Assembly: GCF_017873815.1 (NCBI RefSeq)
Contig: NZ_JAGGKQ010000004.1
Coordinates: 1-64,000 of the forward strand
Source: Halorubrum alkaliphilum
GTDB lineage: Archaea; Halobacteriota; Halobacteria; Halobacteriales; Haloferacaceae
Length of the DNA stretch: 64,000 nt
Direction of reading: 5' to 3'
Shown: in pieces, positions 1 through 58,255 of the stretch
Numbering within the stretch: position 1 is the first letter of the stretch
Layout: every line of letters starts with the position of its first letter
The notes under the pieces: generated by a model
Databases searched by the model: none
What the model was told of the DNA's origin: nothing
What the model saw: only the letters and a program-made list of their open reading frames with translations
Made by a program: the position numbers and the translations under genes

Positions 1-110
1 CCGCAGCCCCCGGGCCGGCAGCGTTGTCACCCCCCCCCACACCCCACCCCTCACCACCCCCCCCCGGCCCCCCCCCCCCCCCGGGGGGGGGGGGGGGGGG
101 GGGCCCCCCG
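1..110. repeat. C/G homopolymer tract at the window edge
   Basis: The first 110 bases are almost pure C, then a run of 15 C (68-82), 21 G (83-103) and 6 C (104-109). The tract is self-complementary and would form a very stable hairpin. It lies where the other copies of the neighbouring repeat element carry a G-rich stretch (read on the minus strand), so it may be an expanded or misread version of that stretch. Homopolymers this long are error-prone, so a contig-end artefact is possible. Confidence 0.6.
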
Positions 111-250
111 ACTCCCTCGCGCGCGAGAAACGCGCGCGCCACCGCCTCGTTCAGTTATAAGCAATAGTCGTTGCCGCTCAAGTCTCTTTTAAATACGATC
201 TCGTCGTCACCGATTTGGGAGATTTACTCCCGAAGTCGCTCAGCACACAC
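111..250 (-). repeat. Repeat element copy D, TATA-box end only
   Basis: This is one end of a non-coding repeat found four times in the window, here read on the minus strand. The terminal core TACTCCCG (225-232) is followed inward by TTTAAA (188-193) and TTATAA (155-160), 39 and 33 nt apart, the same distances as in copies B and C. A perfect CG hairpin follows: CGCGCGC (118-124), a 7-nt loop, GCGCGCG (132-138). Copy C has a similar CG hairpin at the equivalent place. The other end of D is lost beyond the window edge. Confidence 0.75.
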
Positions 251-2969: not shown

Positions 2970-4671
2970 GCTGATCGAGCCGCTGGCGTTCGTCTTCATC
3001 GTCGCCGCGGTCATGTTGCTGATCGCAACCCGAGCACCCGTTCCGGCGGTTCCGCTGTACATCCTCGCGGGACTCGGGATCGGTGCCGGTGGCCTCATCG
3101 ATCCCGGGACCACGCTCGAGCTGGCCCAGCTAGGGATCGCGTTCCTCGTTTTCGCCTTCGGCGTCAACGCCGAGCCGAGCCGGTTCCTCTCGGTCGCCCG
3201 GGACAGCGAGCACGTCGCGGCGGTACAGGTTCTCGCCGTCGGCAGTCTTGGATTCGTGGCGGGCCTGTCGTTCGGCCTCGATCCACTCCCGGCGGTATAC
3301 TTCGCGGTCGCAGCCGCGTTGAGCTCCTCGCTCGTCGGTCGGGAACTCGCGGAAGGAGAGATCCGACGGAACTTGATCCACGGTCGGCTCACCGAGTCGA
3401 TCCACTTCGTTCAGGACTTGTTCGCGGTCGGGATCATCCTCGTTCTCGGAGCGGCGACGTTCTCGCTCGACGCGATCGCACTCCAACTCGGATACGGCGT
3501 GCTACTGTTCGTCGCCGCGATCCTCATCCGGATCTACGTGTTCGATCTTCTCGTCCGGCTCTCCGGTGACTCGGATGAACTGATCATGTTGACCGGGATC
3601 GGTCTCCTGATCGGGTTCCTCGCGATCGCCGAAATCCTCGATCTATCGATCGTCGTCGGCGCGTTCGCGGCCGGGATCTCGATTACACAGGAGTTCGAGC
3701 ACAACCTCGCGCTGCTCTCGGCGCTCGAATCCATCGAGAACTTCTTTACGGCTATCTTCTTCGTCACGCTCGGCAGTCTCGTCGTGGCCCCCTCGGTCGA
3801 AGTGCTCAGCATGGCTGGGGCACTGATGCTCGGGATCGTCGTGGTCAAGCCGCTCGTAACTATCTGGGCGCTGATCTATCAGGGATACGACCCGCGAACG
3901 GCCGCGTTGACGAGCTTCAGTCTCGACCAGATCAGCGAGTTCGCACTCGTCCTCGCGATCAGTGGCCTGTTGGCCGGCACGATCCCACAGACGTTGTTCG
4001 ACGCTATCATCCTCGCGGCGGCGGCGACGATGGTCACGTCGTCCATCACGTACGCCTACGAGAACACGTTCTACCGGGTTCTCGACCGGATCGGTCTGTT
4101 CGGCTCCACACGGCAGCTAACGCGCGAACGGAGTTCGCTGCCCGACGAACCCCTCGATAACCACGTAGTCGTCGTCGGCTACGGAAAGCTCGGCAGCAGC
4201 GTCGTTTCCGTCTGTCGTGAACTCGGCAAGCCGGTCATCGTCGTCGAAAACGACCCCGACCGGTTCGAGCTCGCCCGGGAGTTCCACGAGACTTGTGTCT
4301 TCGGCGACGCGATGAACGACGACGTCCAAGCGCTCCTCGGGATCGACCGGGCGGAGCTGATCGTCTCGACGGCCCCGGACCGTTCGCTTTCGGAGGAGAT
4401 CCTCTCGCTTTCGACCAACGCTGACGTGATCCTCCGTGCGGATGACACCGAGGTCGCGGTCGAACTCGTCGATGACGGGGCGACCTACGTGAACGTCACC
4501 GACTTCCTTGCGAGCGAGCAGTTCGGACACACGCTTTCGCGGCTTCTCACTGCGGACTCGTCCCCGGAATCGCTACGTCAGGAGAACTACCGACTGCTCC
4601 GCGAGCGCGTCTCCGACTCCGGGATCGTTGGGCAGATCGGACCGGAGGAGCTGGGCCCCAATAGGAGATGA
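2962..4671 (+). CDS. CPA2 cation/proton antiporter with TrkA-N (RCK) domain
   Basis: This second antiporter has 569 residues from the ATG at 2962; a GTG at 2953 is in frame, but the ATG gives the usual short N-terminus MSELIEPLAF. Residues 1-375 are the CPA2 membrane domain. Residues about 395-510 are a TrkA-N domain with an intact motif (VVVVGYGKLGSS) and the acidic residue after the second strand (VVENDPD) expected for NAD(H) binding. It overlaps the preceding antiporter by 8 nt, so the two are surely cotranscribed. Its RCK domain, unlike its neighbour's, looks functional, so the pair may be regulated differently. Confidence 0.9.
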   Translation: MSELIEPLAFVFIVAAVMLLIATRAPVPAVPLYILAGLGIGAGGLIDPGTTLELAQLGIAFLVFAFGVNAEPSRFLSVARDSEHVAAVQVLAVGSLGFVAGLSFGLDPLPAVYFAVAAALSSSLVGRELAEGEIRRNLIHGRLTESIHFVQDLFAVGIILVLGAATFSLDAIALQLGYGVLLFVAAILIRIYVFDLLVRLSGDSDELIMLTGIGLLIGFLAIAEILDLSIVVGAFAAGISITQEFEHNLALLSALESIENFFTAIFFVTLGSLVVAPSVEVLSMAGALMLGIVVVKPLVTIWALIYQGYDPRTAALTSFSLDQISEFALVLAISGLLAGTIPQTLFDAIILAAAATMVTSSITYAYENTFYRVLDRIGLFGSTRQLTRERSSLPDEPLDNHVVVVGYGKLGSSVVSVCRELGKPVIVVENDPDRFELAREFHETCVFGDAMNDDVQALLGIDRAELIVSTAPDRSLSEEILSLSTNADVILRADDTEVAVELVDDGATYVNVTDFLASEQFGHTLSRLLTADSSPESLRQENYRLLRERVSDSGIVGQIGPEELGPNRR

Positions 4672-5041
4672 CGTTCCCCCTGCGTGGACGTGTGGAACCC
4701 TCCAGAGGGCGGATCCGGATTATCCCGAGCGTTCGGGTCGGAGATAGCGAACAGCTCCGGATTGGCCTGTTTCGAAATGGCCCGTTCAGAGGATCGTTTT
4801 CCGTCGAGATAGAGGTAGTGTAACGCGGTCCCGACAGGGAACTATGTCCGAGCGAGATAACGTGCGTACGACTGTTGGCCTCGAAGACCTCGGAGACACG
4901 CGTAGGGTACGATCAAACGCCAAGGAGTCGAGAAAACCCGACGCTGGTGCTCAGCGTCAATTAGTCTCGTTAGCGGCTGAGTGTTTTCAATAAAACAGCG
5001 TAAGAACAGCTAGAACGCCCGTTTGCGTTCTAGAACTGCTC
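4672..5041. other. Intergenic region between convergent units
   Basis: This gap separates the antiporter operon (plus) from the end of the ribosomal operon (minus). The minus-strand terminator hairpin lies at its right end. A 49-codon open frame at 4844-4993 (plus) begins MSERDNVRTTVGLEDLG, but shows no domain and no clear promoter, so it is not called as a gene. Confidence 0.4.
4983..5033 (-). terminator. Putative terminator of the ribosomal operon
   Basis: A perfect 9-bp stem (CTAGAACGC 5010-5018 and GCGTTCTAG 5025-5033) with a 6-nt loop lies 9 nt after the secY stop. On the minus strand it is followed by a T-rich stretch ending in GTTTTATTG. Confidence 0.55.
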
Positions 5042-6517
5042 TCACTCGTTGCCGAACATCTGGCGCATCATCGGATGCATCTCCATGAGCTGCTCTTCGG
5101 CGATCTCCTCGTACAGCTTGTACGTGATGGAGACTGCCAGCAGCAGTCCGGTCCCGGAGACCTGACCGATGGTACCGAGCAGGTTCGCCATGACGGCGAG
5201 GAGTCCGACGAGGGCTCCACCGATAACGGTCACCTGCGGGATGTAACGTTCCATGACCTTCTCGACGACCTGCGGGTTCCGTCGGAACCCGGGGATCTGC
5301 ATCCCGGAGTTCTGGATCTGTTTCGCCGTCGCCTCCGGGCCCATTCCGGTCGTTTCGACCCAGAAAATGGCGAATATCGCGCCGCCGATGATCATGAAGG
5401 TTAGATCGATGATGATCCGTGTCGCGATCATCCACGGCTCGACGGTCGCCGGAATCTCGCCGAGGAACCACATCCACTCGTCACGTCGCTGAATGGGGTT
5501 CAAGTAGTAGAACAACCCGGAGATCGGCTCTCCTTGGTCCCCGTACACGCCGAGCGACTCCGGCATCCCCGCCCACTGCGAGGAAAGTATCTGCCCGAGG
5601 AACTGGATGTTTGCCTGTAGCGCACGAACGAGGATCATCGGAAGGACGGACGCATAGATGAGTTTCACCGGGAATCGTCCACGGGCACCCTTCACGCGGG
5701 CATGTGACAGCGGGATCTCGACGCGGACGGACTCCGCGTACACGACGATCCCGAAAATGAACACCGTCGTGAACAGCGCGAGGACGTTACCCGGATCGAA
5801 CAGCAGGTTCTGGAGCCCTTCGGCCGAGAACGGCGAGCCGAGGGCAATGTCCCCGATGATGATCCCGTACCAACTGGCGAAGAAGCCGGACGTGCCGAGC
5901 GCCGAGAAGCTGAAGAAGCCACCGACGATCTGCTGGCTCACGGCGGCGATAATGAACAGTCCGACGCCGGAGCCAACTCCCCACTTGCTCACGATCTCGT
6001 CCATGAACAGGATGAGGACGCCACCGATGAACACCTGCGTGAATATCAGTAGCTCGACACCGAAGGTACCGATGCCGAGGGCGGCTCCCACGTCCGGATT
6101 GGCGGGAAGGAACTCGCCGGTAAACACCATCGGCGCTGCCGTCAGCGCCGTAACGATGATCACGAGGAGCTTCTGGAGCCCCTGATACAGCACTTGGTCG
6201 CGCGGGTCGTTCGTGTCGAGCCCGAGGAGGTTCGCCCCGCCCAAAAGCTGGAGGACGATCGACGCCGTGACGATCGGACCGATTCCGACCTGTAGCAGCG
6301 AGCCGTGCTCTCCCGCCAACACCGACCGAAACTGTCCGAAGAAGTCGGTCCCCTGTCCGGCAACGAGCCCGAAGGGGTTGATGTTGGTCAAGAAGAAGTA
6401 GACGATCAGGATCCCGGCCGTCCACGCCAGCTTCCGCTTGAACGGAACGTGACCCGCGGGACGATTCACCACGGGCATTCGCGTGAGTACCGGCTCGGCG
6501 ACCTCCTTCCAGCTCAT
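5042..6517 (-). CDS. secY: Preprotein translocase subunit SecY
   Basis: SecY is the channel subunit of the Sec translocon in the cell membrane. The 491-residue protein has the expected ten or so hydrophobic segments, the amphipathic N-terminus (MSWKEVAEPVLTRMPVVNRP) and the conserved cytoplasmic loops (GFRRNPQVVEKVMERYIPQV near the C-terminus). It is the last gene of the ribosomal operon, 2 nt after the L15 stop, as in other archaea. The ATG at 6517 matches the family start. Confidence 0.97.
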   Translation of the reverse strand: MSWKEVAEPVLTRMPVVNRPAGHVPFKRKLAWTAGILIVYFFLTNINPFGLVAGQGTDFFGQFRSVLAGEHGSLLQVGIGPIVTASIVLQLLGGANLLGLDTNDPRDQVLYQGLQKLLVIIVTALTAAPMVFTGEFLPANPDVGAALGIGTFGVELLIFTQVFIGGVLILFMDEIVSKWGVGSGVGLFIIAAVSQQIVGGFFSFSALGTSGFFASWYGIIIGDIALGSPFSAEGLQNLLFDPGNVLALFTTVFIFGIVVYAESVRVEIPLSHARVKGARGRFPVKLIYASVLPMILVRALQANIQFLGQILSSQWAGMPESLGVYGDQGEPISGLFYYLNPIQRRDEWMWFLGEIPATVEPWMIATRIIIDLTFMIIGGAIFAIFWVETTGMGPEATAKQIQNSGMQIPGFRRNPQVVEKVMERYIPQVTVIGGALVGLLAVMANLLGTIGQVSGTGLLLAVSITYKLYEEIAEEQLMEMHPMMRQMFGNE

Positions 6518-18567: not shown

Positions 18568-19434
18568 TTACTCCGTGAGTGTGAGCGAGCCGAGGGTCGC
18601 GAACAGAGCCTCCTCCGTTCGGACTACCCCGCTGCCCTGTGCCGGGATCGTGTTCAGCCAGAGGTCGAACCCCGGATCGGGTTCGACTCGGCGGCCGTCT
18701 GAGACGGCCGTGCGGACGTCCTCGGGCGATAGCCCGAGCATCTCCGGAAGCCCCCGTTCGGGCGCGCCGAAGGCGACGGTGTATCCGCCGGCCTCCCGCG
18801 CGTCCGGGACGATGTCGCCAAGCCGCGAGACGGAGAGTTCCTCCCCGTGTCGCGACGTTGCGACGGCGAGTTCGTCGCCGTCGAGCGCTTCCGAAAGGTC
18901 CGCGCCCACGACCTGGAAACCGTCCTCCGGCTTCCCGGTGATGCGGGCGCGGACCGGTTCTCTCGAAGAGATCCTGATGGTGACGCGCTCCCCCTGCTCG
19001 ACCTCCATTCCAGAGGGAACGAGCAGTGAGATCGGGTGTTCCCCCAGCGGGGAATTGACCCGAACGCGGCCTTCAGGTCCGACCTCGGTCACGAGTCCCT
19101 GTGTTATCGACTCGTCCCCGTCGGGGGACGAGCCGGTCCGCCATGACACGCGGAGCGGCGGTAGCACGCCGACGTACCGGAGGGCGTCGCGTTCGCCCCA
19201 GAGGTCCTTTCGGAGCTCCGGCGGCGTCGCGGCGTACCCCAGCACGGCACGAACGTACTCCCCACCCCGGCGGCGTTCGCCTTCCCGGTCCGGGAAGACG
19301 ACGAGCCGGTCCGCCCGGAACACCGCCGCCGCACGGGCGACGTAGCCGAGTTTGCGAGTTGCCTCGCGATCGTCTTCGGCTTCCCGGACGACCGAAGACG
19401 GAACACAGATCGTGACTCCGTCTTCGGTACGCAT
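18568..19434 (-). CDS. Putative SPOUT-class RNA methyltransferase (COG2106 type)
   Basis: The 288-residue protein belongs by sequence and position to the archaeal SPOUT methyltransferase family usually encoded just before L3. The N-terminal half has the Rossmann-like start (TICVPSSVVREAEDDREATR, AAAVFRADRLVVFPD) and a central OB-like insert at 85-170. The C-terminal half has the knot-forming segments (VAFGAPERGLPEMLGLS, DLWLNTIPAQGSGVVRTEEA). Family members are predicted to methylate rRNA. A TATA-like CTAAAAGG lies about 40 nt upstream, so it probably leads the whole ribosomal operon. Confidence 0.85.
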   Translation of the reverse strand: MRTEDGVTICVPSSVVREAEDDREATRKLGYVARAAAVFRADRLVVFPDREGERRRGGEYVRAVLGYAATPPELRKDLWGERDALRYVGVLPPLRVSWRTGSSPDGDESITQGLVTEVGPEGRVRVNSPLGEHPISLLVPSGMEVEQGERVTIRISSREPVRARITGKPEDGFQVVGADLSEALDGDELAVATSRHGEELSVSRLGDIVPDAREAGGYTVAFGAPERGLPEMLGLSPEDVRTAVSDGRRVEPDPGFDLWLNTIPAQGSGVVRTEEALFATLGSLTLTE

Positions 19435-21313: not shown

Positions 21314-21870
21314 TAGCGATGTCACTCAGATCGATGGCAATGAGATCGTATTTAAAAAGTGTGTGAACGGCTGCGACGATGGGTTATAAACAAGCGATGC
21401 GGTGGCGTCACCGGCGCCACCGGTGACAGGGCGAGAGCGGAGCTCTCGCTAGCAACCGGCGGCTTTGCCGCCGGTGACGAGGTTGGGGAGGCGTGAGGTG
21501 CGGGTGCGGTGCGGGGTGGGACTCAAACGGACAGCCTGCTCCGGGAAGATGGGCGTTCACGAGAGCGGCGCTCTCGTGAGCCGATCAGAACGCGCCGCGT
21601 TCTGATGACGACGCAAGCAGTTAAAAGGGCGAGCGCAGCGAGCTGTGTGAGCGCGCAGCGAGCCCCTCGACCGGAGCAGACTGGGGCTTTGGAGGTGTCC
21701 ACCGTTGATTCGGTGCCAAGCGCTTGTAAACGAACAGCTGGAGGGATGGAACCGTTCACCACAGCACCATCTATTTATAAACTGCCGCCAGCAGCCTCGC
21801 TCGTCCACTTATAAACGCCCACCACACCCTATTGTGAGACTTACTCCCGTCATCGTTCACTGACGTATCA
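21314..21870 (+). repeat. Repeat element copy A
   Basis: This is a non-coding element related to copies B, C and D. The left end has TTTAAA (21351) and TTATAA (21384) 33 nt apart, but its terminal core is degenerate. The right end has TTGTAA (21724), TTATAA (21775), TTATAA (21809) and the core TACTCCCG (21842-21849), spaced 51, 34 and 33 nt. Between them lie three perfect hairpins (about 21408-21475), a G-rich stretch ending GGGGTGGGACTCAAA (to about 21532) and a double hairpin (about 21549-21606). Short open frames here match nothing recognisable. Confidence 0.8.
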
Positions 21871-49837: not shown

Positions 49838-50470
49838 ATGAGTCGGAACCCGCCGCTTTCCCGACTGCTCCCGTTCCCCGTCGTCGACGAGGCGTGGCGC
49901 TTGGCGCTCGTGCCCGCGCTCGTCGCGGCCGTCACCCTACCGTTTCTCCCGCCCGTCGGGATCCTCGCGCTCGCGACTTCCCTCGGCGTCCTCTGGTTCC
50001 ACCGTGACCCCGAGCGGACCCCGCCGGAACCGGAGGCGGCCGTCGTCGCCCCCGCGGACGGGACCGTGAGCGTCGTCCGTGAGGAGGGCGAGCGACTCCG
50101 CGTTGGCGTGTACATGAGCGCGACCGACGTCCACGTCAACCGCGCGCCGATCGCGGGTGAGGTCCGGGAGGTGCGCCATCGTCCCGGTGCGAACCGGCCG
50201 GCGTTCGACAAGGAGTCCGAGCGCAACGAGCAGGTCGCCATCGACGTCGGCGAGTACGAACTGCTCGTCATCGCCGGCTGGTTCGCCCGCCGGATCCACC
50301 CCGCCGTCGAGGCCGGCGACCGGATCGAACGAGGCGACCGCGTCGGCCACGTCTCGTTCGGGTCACGCGCCGACGTGGTGTTGCCGACAGATGTCGACCG
50401 CGAGCACCTGCTCGTCGCCGAGGGCGACTCGGTCCGCGCGGGCGAGACGATCATCGCCGAGCGGGAGTGA
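49838..50470 (+). CDS. psd: Phosphatidylserine/archaetidylserine decarboxylase proenzyme
   Basis: The 210-residue protein is a short-form decarboxylase acting on phospho- or archaetidylserine to make the ethanolamine lipid head group. A helix near 28-50 anchors it, and the conserved block AVVAPADGTVSVVREEGERL and the self-cleavage site region GHVSFGSRADVVLP (Gly-Ser cut forming the pyruvoyl group) are present. Its stop TGA lies inside the left terminus of repeat element B. Confidence 0.9.
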   Translation: MSRNPPLSRLLPFPVVDEAWRLALVPALVAAVTLPFLPPVGILALATSLGVLWFHRDPERTPPEPEAAVVAPADGTVSVVREEGERLRVGVYMSATDVHVNRAPIAGEVREVRHRPGANRPAFDKESERNEQVAIDVGEYELLVIAGWFARRIHPAVEAGDRIERGDRVGHVSFGSRADVVLPTDVDREHLLVAEGDSVRAGETIIAERE

Positions 50471-51047
50471 GTCTCTCAGACCGACGGCGACGAGATGGTA
50501 TTTAAATACGGAACGAACGATAGCGACGATGGTTTATAAGTAAGCGGTGCGGTGGCGTGCCTCCGAGCGGCCGAGCGGTGCGAGGCCGCGAGGAGTCCGC
50601 GAGGGACGCGGTGAGCGCTCGGAGAGCGCGAACCGCGAGGCTGGGGAGGTGTGAGGTGCGGTGCGGGTGCGGGTGCGGTGCGGGTGCGGTGCGGTGCGGG
50701 TGCGGTGCGGGTGCGGTGCGGTGCGGTGCGGTGTGGGGTGGGACTCAAAAGGGGCAGTCGCCGGACCACGTCCGGCTGCCAGAGTCGCGTAGCGCCTCGC
50801 TGCCGTACGGGCGGCACAGGCGTTCGCCGTCGACCTACCGTCGATCACTTATAAGCGAGCGGCTGGGACTTTGTCAGTCGCCACCGACCCGCCAGCAACG
50901 ACTTATAAACGAACGACCGGCTGTTCAAACGCACCTAACACGCCACCAACGACGTATACACAGCCGCCAGCGACACCGCTCGCTCACTTATAAACAACCC
51001 GACACACATGTATCAGGCGTACTCCCGTCATCCATGAGATCAGTATC
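50459..51047 (+). repeat. Repeat element copy B
   Basis: The left terminus overlaps the psd stop: core CGGGAGTG (50462-50469), TTTAAA (50501), TTATAA (50534), spaced 39 and 33 nt. The right end has TTATAA (50903), GTATAC (50954), TTATAA (50988) and core TACTCCCG (51020-51027), spaced 51, 34 and 32 nt, with an extra TTATAA at 50849. Between them lie a G-rich GGTGCGG-repeat tract (about 50653-50735) and the GGGACTCAAAAGGGGCAGTC block shared with copy C. No gene is recognised. Confidence 0.85.
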
Positions 51048-57610: not shown

Positions 57611-58255
57611 GGCGACGTGATGAGCGATGTCGGGAGTATATCGAGTATATTGAGAGAGTGGCGTTTATAAGCGAGAGAGTGCTGTTGCTGGCGGCGGTTT
57701 ATAAGTGAATGACTCCGCGAGAGACAACTCACACGTTCCACCCACTCGTTTATAAGTCTGCGACTGCGGATCGATGGTGACGATCTCCAAAGCCCCAGCC
57801 GTGTGAGCGGCGTAGGCGTTCACGAGAGCGGAGCTCTCGTGAGCCAATCAGAACGCTACGCGTTCTGATGACGACGCAAGCAGCGTGGCGCGGAGCGCCA
57901 CGGGCAGCCGGCGGCTCCGCCGCCGGCGACACCGCAACGAGGGAACTTGCGACCGAGTGAGGAGCGCAGCGAGCGTACGCCGCTCACACGGCAGCGAGGC
58001 GCTCCACGCCTCTGGCAGCCGGACGTAGTCCGGCGACTGCCCCTTTGAGTCCCACCCCGCCCCACGACCGCACCTCACGCCTCCCCAACCTCGTCGGCGG
58101 CGCCGCCGCCGGCGACCTCGCGCGCGTTTCTCGCGCGCGCGCCACCGCCTCGTTTATTTATAAGCAATAGTCGCTGCCGCTCAAGCCTCTTTTAAATACG
58201 ATCACGTCACTGCCGATTTGAGCGACTTACTCCCGATATCGCTCGTCGCGTCGCC
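57611..58255 (-). repeat. Repeat element copy C
   Basis: The element is bounded by near-perfect inverted termini (57611-57643 and 58223-58255, 28 of 33 positions matching), both holding GAGCGAT(G/A)TCGGGAGTA. From the right end inward: core TACTCCCG (58228-58235), TTTAAA (58191), TTATAA (58158), spaced 39 and 33 nt. From the left: core (57631-57638), then TTATAA at 57665, 57699 and 57750, spaced 32, 34 and 51 nt. Inside are CG-rich hairpins, the GACTGCCCCTTTGAGTCCC block shared with copy B, and the double hairpin shared with copy A in opposite relative orientation. Confidence 0.9.

Follow-up and report, generated by a model that had tools for sequence, protein, structure and literature searches.

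Four non-coding units (copies A–D) in a 64,000-nt stretch of the Halorubrum alkaliphilum genome (contig NZ_JAGGKQ010000004.1; hereafter the window) are members of one element family of Halorubrum. The unit is probably a mobile DNA element of the non-autonomous kind, moved in trans by proteins that would dock as a complex on the arrays of short A/T hexamers (boxes) inside both of its ends. Each unit is typically ~368–620 bp long, carries no gene, and is bounded by inverted repeats of ~27 bp with the consensus TGANNGATNNCGGGAGTRRGTCTCNCA. The family is previously undescribed; a search of the open-access literature, with subscription papers outside it, found no description of the element in Halorubrum.

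Four copies in the window

The units and their parts are located as follows.

21314–21859, plus strand: copy A, whole unit; the left inverted repeat is degenerate (sequence comparison)
21351–21389, plus strand: copy A, left boxes TTTAAA (21351) and TTATAA (21384), step 33 nt (direct reading)
21399–21527, plus strand: copy A, core with GCGGTGGCG, hairpin mosaic, GGTTGGGGAGGCGTGAGG (21481–21498) and GGGTGGGACTCAAA
21724–21814, plus strand: copy A, right boxes TTGTAA (21724), TTATAA (21775) and TTATAA (21809), steps 51 and 34 nt
21833–21859, minus strand: copy A, right terminal inverted repeat (end-pattern search)
50452–51037, plus strand: copy B, whole unit
50462–50539, plus strand: copy B, left end with CGGGAGT (50462), TTTAAA (50501, +39) and TTATAA (50534, +33)
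50549–50749, plus strand: copy B, core with GCGGTGGCG, hairpins, GGCTGGGGAGGTGTGAGG (50639–50656), GGTGCG minirepeats and GGGTGGGACTCAAA
50849–51027, plus strand: copy B, right arm with TTATAA (50849), TTATAA (50903), GTATAC (50954), TTATAA (50988) and ACTCCCG (51021), steps 54, 51, 34 and 33 nt
57621–58245, minus strand: copy C, whole unit
58158–58245, minus strand: copy C, left end with terminal repeat (58219–58245), TTTAAA (58191–58196) and TTATAA (58158–58163)
57787–58148, minus strand: copy C, core with GCGGTGGCG (58140–58148), hairpins, G-rich motif (58073–58090), ACTCAAA (58044–58057), swappable hairpins and GGCTGGGGCTTTGG (57787–57800)
57621–57755, minus strand: copy C, right arm with TTATAA at 57750, 57699 and 57665 (steps 51 and 34 nt), terminal-repeat core (57631–57637) and outer edge at ~57621
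1–242, minus strand: copy D, cut by the contig start, with terminal repeat (216–242), TTTAAA (188–193) and TTATAA (155–160)

Direct reading of copies A–D confirms the box distances of the original prediction, including the loss of the left core in copy A with its 33-nt step kept. The predicted coordinates are right overall, except that copy C ends at ~57621 and not at 57611. The steps of 51, 34 and 33 nt given for the right arm of copy B hold as well, but the arm has one additional upstream box, at a repeat step of 54 nt. In copy A, the end core follows the last right box at +34 nt. Copy C, read on the minus strand, has left steps of 39 and 33 nt and right steps of 51, 34 and 33 nt. Copy D has steps of 39 and 33 nt and then runs into the contig start; because it is cut and is adjoined by a G/C-homopolymer stretch, it carries little independent weight. 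Such G/C homopolymer runs lie in a core hairpin (P2) at positions ~1–110 of the window, in copy D, and also in one internal copy, at locus L042 near 4400–4500, and are probably an assembly artefact at strong hairpins. Six contigs of the assembly (C2, C6, C7, C8, C11, and C15) start or stop inside units.

Box distances are fixed and spacers drift

When the distances are left free in a search, they stay fixed. The step from the left core to the TTTAAA-type box is exactly 39 nt in 49 of 52 modules of nine species, with 29–57 nt allowed; one of the exceptions is at 37 nt and two are at 55 nt. The identity of this spacer averages 67% (63% between species) and falls to a minimum of 37%. The next left step, between the TTTAAA and TTATAA boxes, measures 32 or 33 nt, and 34 nt once. 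In 49 of 50 right arms, again with the distance free, a step of 34 nt separates the final two TTATAA boxes, and the end core follows the last box after 34 nt (43 arms) or 33 nt (7 arms). Further upstream, the right arm consists of a 51–57-nt unit with one box, which is repeated in some copies. Alignments of the left modules (26 copies, 100 columns, ~79% mean column identity) and the right modules (25 copies, ~135 columns, ~78%) are nearly indel-free. The expectation of a non-coding repeat with strongly constrained distances and drifting spacers is thus borne out, and the comparison of copies is strong evidence that the box distances are under selection. We infer that protein binding may be the reason.

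Three other readings of the conserved modules were rejected or set aside. A coding function does not fit, as some box steps are not divisible by three, indels of 1 nt are present, and no gene is called. For palindromic selection on the boxes (variants GTATAC and GATATC), the cases are too few. The dyad TGAGCGA...TCGCTCA of the terminal repeat, considered as a tyrosine-recombinase site, is found only in some left ends here and is absent in Halorubrum sp. CSM-61.

Copy number and genomic context

The 3.1-Mb source genome, which is fragmented into 64 contigs, holds about 70–85 end modules. Copy C as a query gives 110 matches in its own genome, which reduce to ~36 places. Profiles of the left (26 copies) and right (25 copies) modules give rough figures of ~85 left matches and, with looser scoring, at least 151 right matches among the candidates listed. 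The 27-bp end pattern, with up to three mismatches, occurs 72 times, and its reversed control does not occur. The pattern is also found in the named genomes of Halorubrum sp. CSM-61, H. salipaludis, and H. tebenquichense, and on one contig labelled as a Halobacteriales metagenome assembly. Copy number differs strongly between species, from dozens to ~100 per genome.

Genes were called by simple codon usage around 37 copies, and every one of these copies lies between genes (convergent in 12 cases, tandem in 16, and divergent in 4, with the rest cut by contig ends), convergent neighbours being found more often. No gene is called in the unit interior, and longer copies contain other insertions. 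In locus L050 (G000:C3:167476-168680), the unit is interrupted by an insertion with an open frame that reads like what we take to be an IS6-type DDE transposase. In locus L071 (G000:C25, ~4200–5150), it is interrupted by an insertion whose open frame is presumably an IS1595-type transposase. The end modules cluster by species (5 label changes vs 19.9 after shuffling), indicating that copies spread or are homogenised within species.

A mosaic of hairpins forms the core

The core runs in the order GGTGGCG, hairpin P1, CGAGGGA, hairpin P2, GAGGYTGGGGAGGYGTGAGG, a G-rich stretch, ACTCAAAGGGG, further hairpins, and GGCTGGGGCTTTGG. The hairpins vary among copies and can lie in either orientation, which makes the core a mosaic with exchangeable hairpins, while the unpaired strings are invariant, and GAGG follows the hairpins. 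In copy B, a GGTGCG minirepeat tract of variable length occupies 50656–50735. Between 57820 and 57890 of the window (minus strand) lies a hairpin pair, TCATCAGAACGC..GCGTTCTGAT and CTCACGAGAG..CTCTCGTGA, that is common on plasmids of Natrinema, Haloferax, Natronomonas, and others, independent of the element.

The hairpin-mosaic core, which the original prediction overlooked, is more widespread than the boxed ends. An 18-base core motif occurs 8–149 times per genome in each of 15 sampled Halorubrum genomes (none for the reversed control). It is also frequent in genus g17, which belongs to another family, is present in g8, and is rare beyond these. The g17 cores have no boxes. Part of the copy C core (query positions 116–199) has a partial match on a Halorussus caseinilyticus plasmid, which suggests that g17 may be Halorussus.

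Pairing within the hairpins is conserved. The P1 helix has 17 pairs, of which 9 are changed on both sides; 92% of its cells are paired compared with 80% after shuffling, the covariation score is 0.339 compared with 0.131, and RNAalifold counts 10 compensatory pairs. The P2 arms differ in sequence and pair within but not between copies (7.2 of 8 pairs vs 5.6 shuffled). These features, together with the invariant unpaired strings and the presence of the motif in other genera, would suit a family of structured RNA genes with its own promoters, in which TTATAA serves as the TATA box and dispersal is secondary. In promoter scoring on the better strand, the boxes have medians of 2.9–5.6, against a native promoter median of 4.2 and a coding background of 1.2. 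Both left boxes and right boxes 1 and 2 are near or just above the native median, but right box 3 scores below native promoters, and the boxes are not clearly promoters. The box steps of 33–57 nt also match no known promoter logic, and the box-less cores of g17 count against the RNA gene reading as well. Rfam 15, searched for a known RNA gene, gives no match above the gathering score, in line with the original prediction (best match, radC, 22.9 bits; cut-off, 40).

The stem mismatches, in counts that include related copies, comprise 20 G-T and 24 A-C, and 140 G-A and 16 T-C. Unlike under selection on an RNA strand, G-T is no commoner than A-C, though G-A far exceeds T-C. This pattern, though not decisive, speaks less for an ordinary structured RNA than for single-strand folding, perhaps of DNA, or for palindromes whose perfection is maintained by template switching. 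We consider a structured RNA gene family an improbable account of the core. A separate Rfam match, far above the cut-off, lies at 18974–19076 (minus strand) of the window, where the L4-Archaeoglobi ribosomal leader is found in a Halorubrum genome.

Occupied, empty, and inverted sites

Closely similar units are found at unrelated places. Copy C is 94% identical over 620 bp to G000:C6:106651-107268 on contig 6 of its own genome, with unrelated flanks, and in another pair of copies the right part, as far as the right end, is 97.8% identical over 414 bp. Beyond the inverted ends, copies are no longer homologous. One 450-bp unit of Halorubrum sp. CSM-61 has a paralogue of 99% identity in its own genome, whereas its match at the syntenic site in genome G003 reaches only ~86%.

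The site of this 450-bp unit, between convergent genes, is occupied in 13 species and empty in eight. The gap between the two genes is 447–631 nt in the ten occupied species with both genes found, compared with 20–117 nt in the eight empty ones; in the three other occupied species, CSM-61 among them, the same upstream gene is not within 1.5 kb. In three of the occupied species (G040, G011, and G047) the unit is inverted, and in G040 its neighbours are the same two convergent genes. The well-supported branches of a tree built from the neighbouring gene require a minimum of four gains or losses, which this single-gene tree does not separate. At the site of copy B, many relatives are empty, and four related species have the core without the boxes, indicating that the core can be kept without them, a point against the main reading. 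The inverted ends, together with the empty sites that had been sought as a sign of mobility, agree with the proposal of a non-autonomous mobile element.

Target duplications, also sought, were not seen: no direct repeats lie beside the ends of the copies checked, although older copies could have lost them. Likewise, when a relative that has these ends and carries a transposase was sought, no transposase, recombinase, or autonomous copy was found between paired ends in the fragmented source genome, whose contigs are incomplete. In copy B, the left CGGGAGTGA shares bases with the stop region of the gene upstream of it (49838–50470), and this gene has the same final letters in related species without the element; insertion via CGGGAGTGA at the end of the gene was considered and set aside, as it is seen at copy B only. 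Mobilisation by RAYT was rejected because Y1 (RAYT-type) transposases are absent in element-rich genomes: they are missing from 11 of 52 genomes, including G005 with ~77 left modules, and none is found in G005, G004, G015, G018, or G055, all rich in element or core. A phage or virus origin was discarded, with no phage match and no viral-contig match, as was plasmid spread of the whole unit, the plasmid matches being the hairpin pair and core pieces only.

The fixed box distances and the intergenic position had also raised the idea of a nucleoprotein array for chromosome architecture, an origin, partition, or silencing. This is very improbable, because a fixed chromosomal function is at odds with 70–100 copies per genome, a patchy distribution among related species, and units that are inverted in place. 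Moreover, the core has no strand polarity along the G112 chromosome: both strands are mixed, and an apparent one-strand replichore bias came from listing order.

The data on the syntenic site are compatible both with transposition and loss and with ancient presence and conversion, which they do not separate. Occupancy of one site in 13 species could reflect an old vertical element with repeated loss and conversion, and not transposition. A possible, though doubtful, account of the whole family is an old interspersed repeat of mostly vertical descent, whose copies gene conversion would keep alike in the polyploid haloarchaea and on which no transposase would act now; losses would be deletions, and inversions would come from homologous recombination between inverted ends. 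The greater likeness of copies within a species than between syntenic copies of different species, the inverted units at one boundary, and the lack of a transposase in the source genome agree with it. However, units that are 94–99% identical, lie at unrelated sites, and end sharply at the inverted repeats need a dispersal step at some time, and the strong differences in copy number between species also argue against a mostly vertical repeat.

Comparison with known systems

Among described elements, the small mobile repeats (SMRs) of Haloquadratum come closest. SMR-A and SMR-B of Haloquadratum walsbyi have inverted ends unrelated to known transposons and no target duplication; at ~80–110 bp they are too short for a transposase, occur in tens of copies that are commonly >95% identical, and target other mobile elements, and their mobilisation has been called enigmatic (PMC3119063). 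The Halorubrum unit shares the inverted ends, with no transposase between them in its own genome, the lack of target duplication, the insufficient length for a transposase, and the tens of copies. It differs in being four to six times longer (368–620 bp) and more divergent, in lying between host genes, and in having box arrays and a hairpin mosaic.

MITEs, which also occur in haloarchaea, have the same ends as a known transposon, and many of them come with target duplications (PMC3119063; PMC10969869). Both they and the Halorubrum unit are non-coding with inverted ends, and would be moved in trans if at all. The Halorubrum unit has no target duplication, which is not required of every MITE, and no transposon with shared ends appears among the paired ends of its own fragmented genome.

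REP, REPIN, and BIME elements work with RAYT transposases (PMC2817692, PMC3116915, PMC3733652). They resemble the Halorubrum unit as high-copy intergenic hairpin mosaics, often near gene 3′ ends, with a short unpaired tag. The tag is GAGG here, and not the REP feet GTAG or CGTC; the unit further differs by its long inverted ends, its box arrays, and the element-rich genomes that have no Y1 transposases. Palindromes without target duplication also recall PATEs, which are non-coding, and IS200/IS605-type elements. However, PATEs by definition have no terminal inverted repeats (PMC3119063), and the Halorubrum unit has them.

The boxes recall, by analogy, larger transposons, with several boxes at fixed distances in each end and a different arrangement on the left and right. 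The ends of Tn7 and Mu contain several spaced protein sites, also arranged differently on the two sides. No relation is shown; the Halorubrum unit has no transposase or target duplication, and its boxes are short A/T hexamers.

Discussion

For a non-autonomous mobile element, the observations could be joined as follows. A trans-acting recombinase or transposase complex would bind the end core and dock its protomers on the boxes, so that distances would be selected and spacer letters would not. Both ends would then be brought together, and the unit would either enter its target, leaving no visible duplication, or be flipped where it lies. Recombination between homologous copies, or gene conversion, would homogenise them within species and shuffle the hairpins.

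A bolder and rather unlikely version is a new transposase-less class of element. Here, asymmetric docking arrays with fixed distances and an exchangeable hairpin cassette would be moved, and inverted in place, by a haloarchaeal recombinase that recognises folded single-stranded DNA. The core, common to several haloarchaeal families, would itself be the structured partner, either RNA or DNA.

A large genus-wide family would join the haloarchaeal mobile repeats whose movement is enigmatic (PMC3119063). Short-read assemblies break at the units, as happens where contig NZ_JAGGKQ010000004.1 begins. The spacing rule offers a concrete bait for finding the protein, and movement can be tested in cultured Halorubrum strains at the syntenic site that is occupied, empty, or inverted depending on the species.
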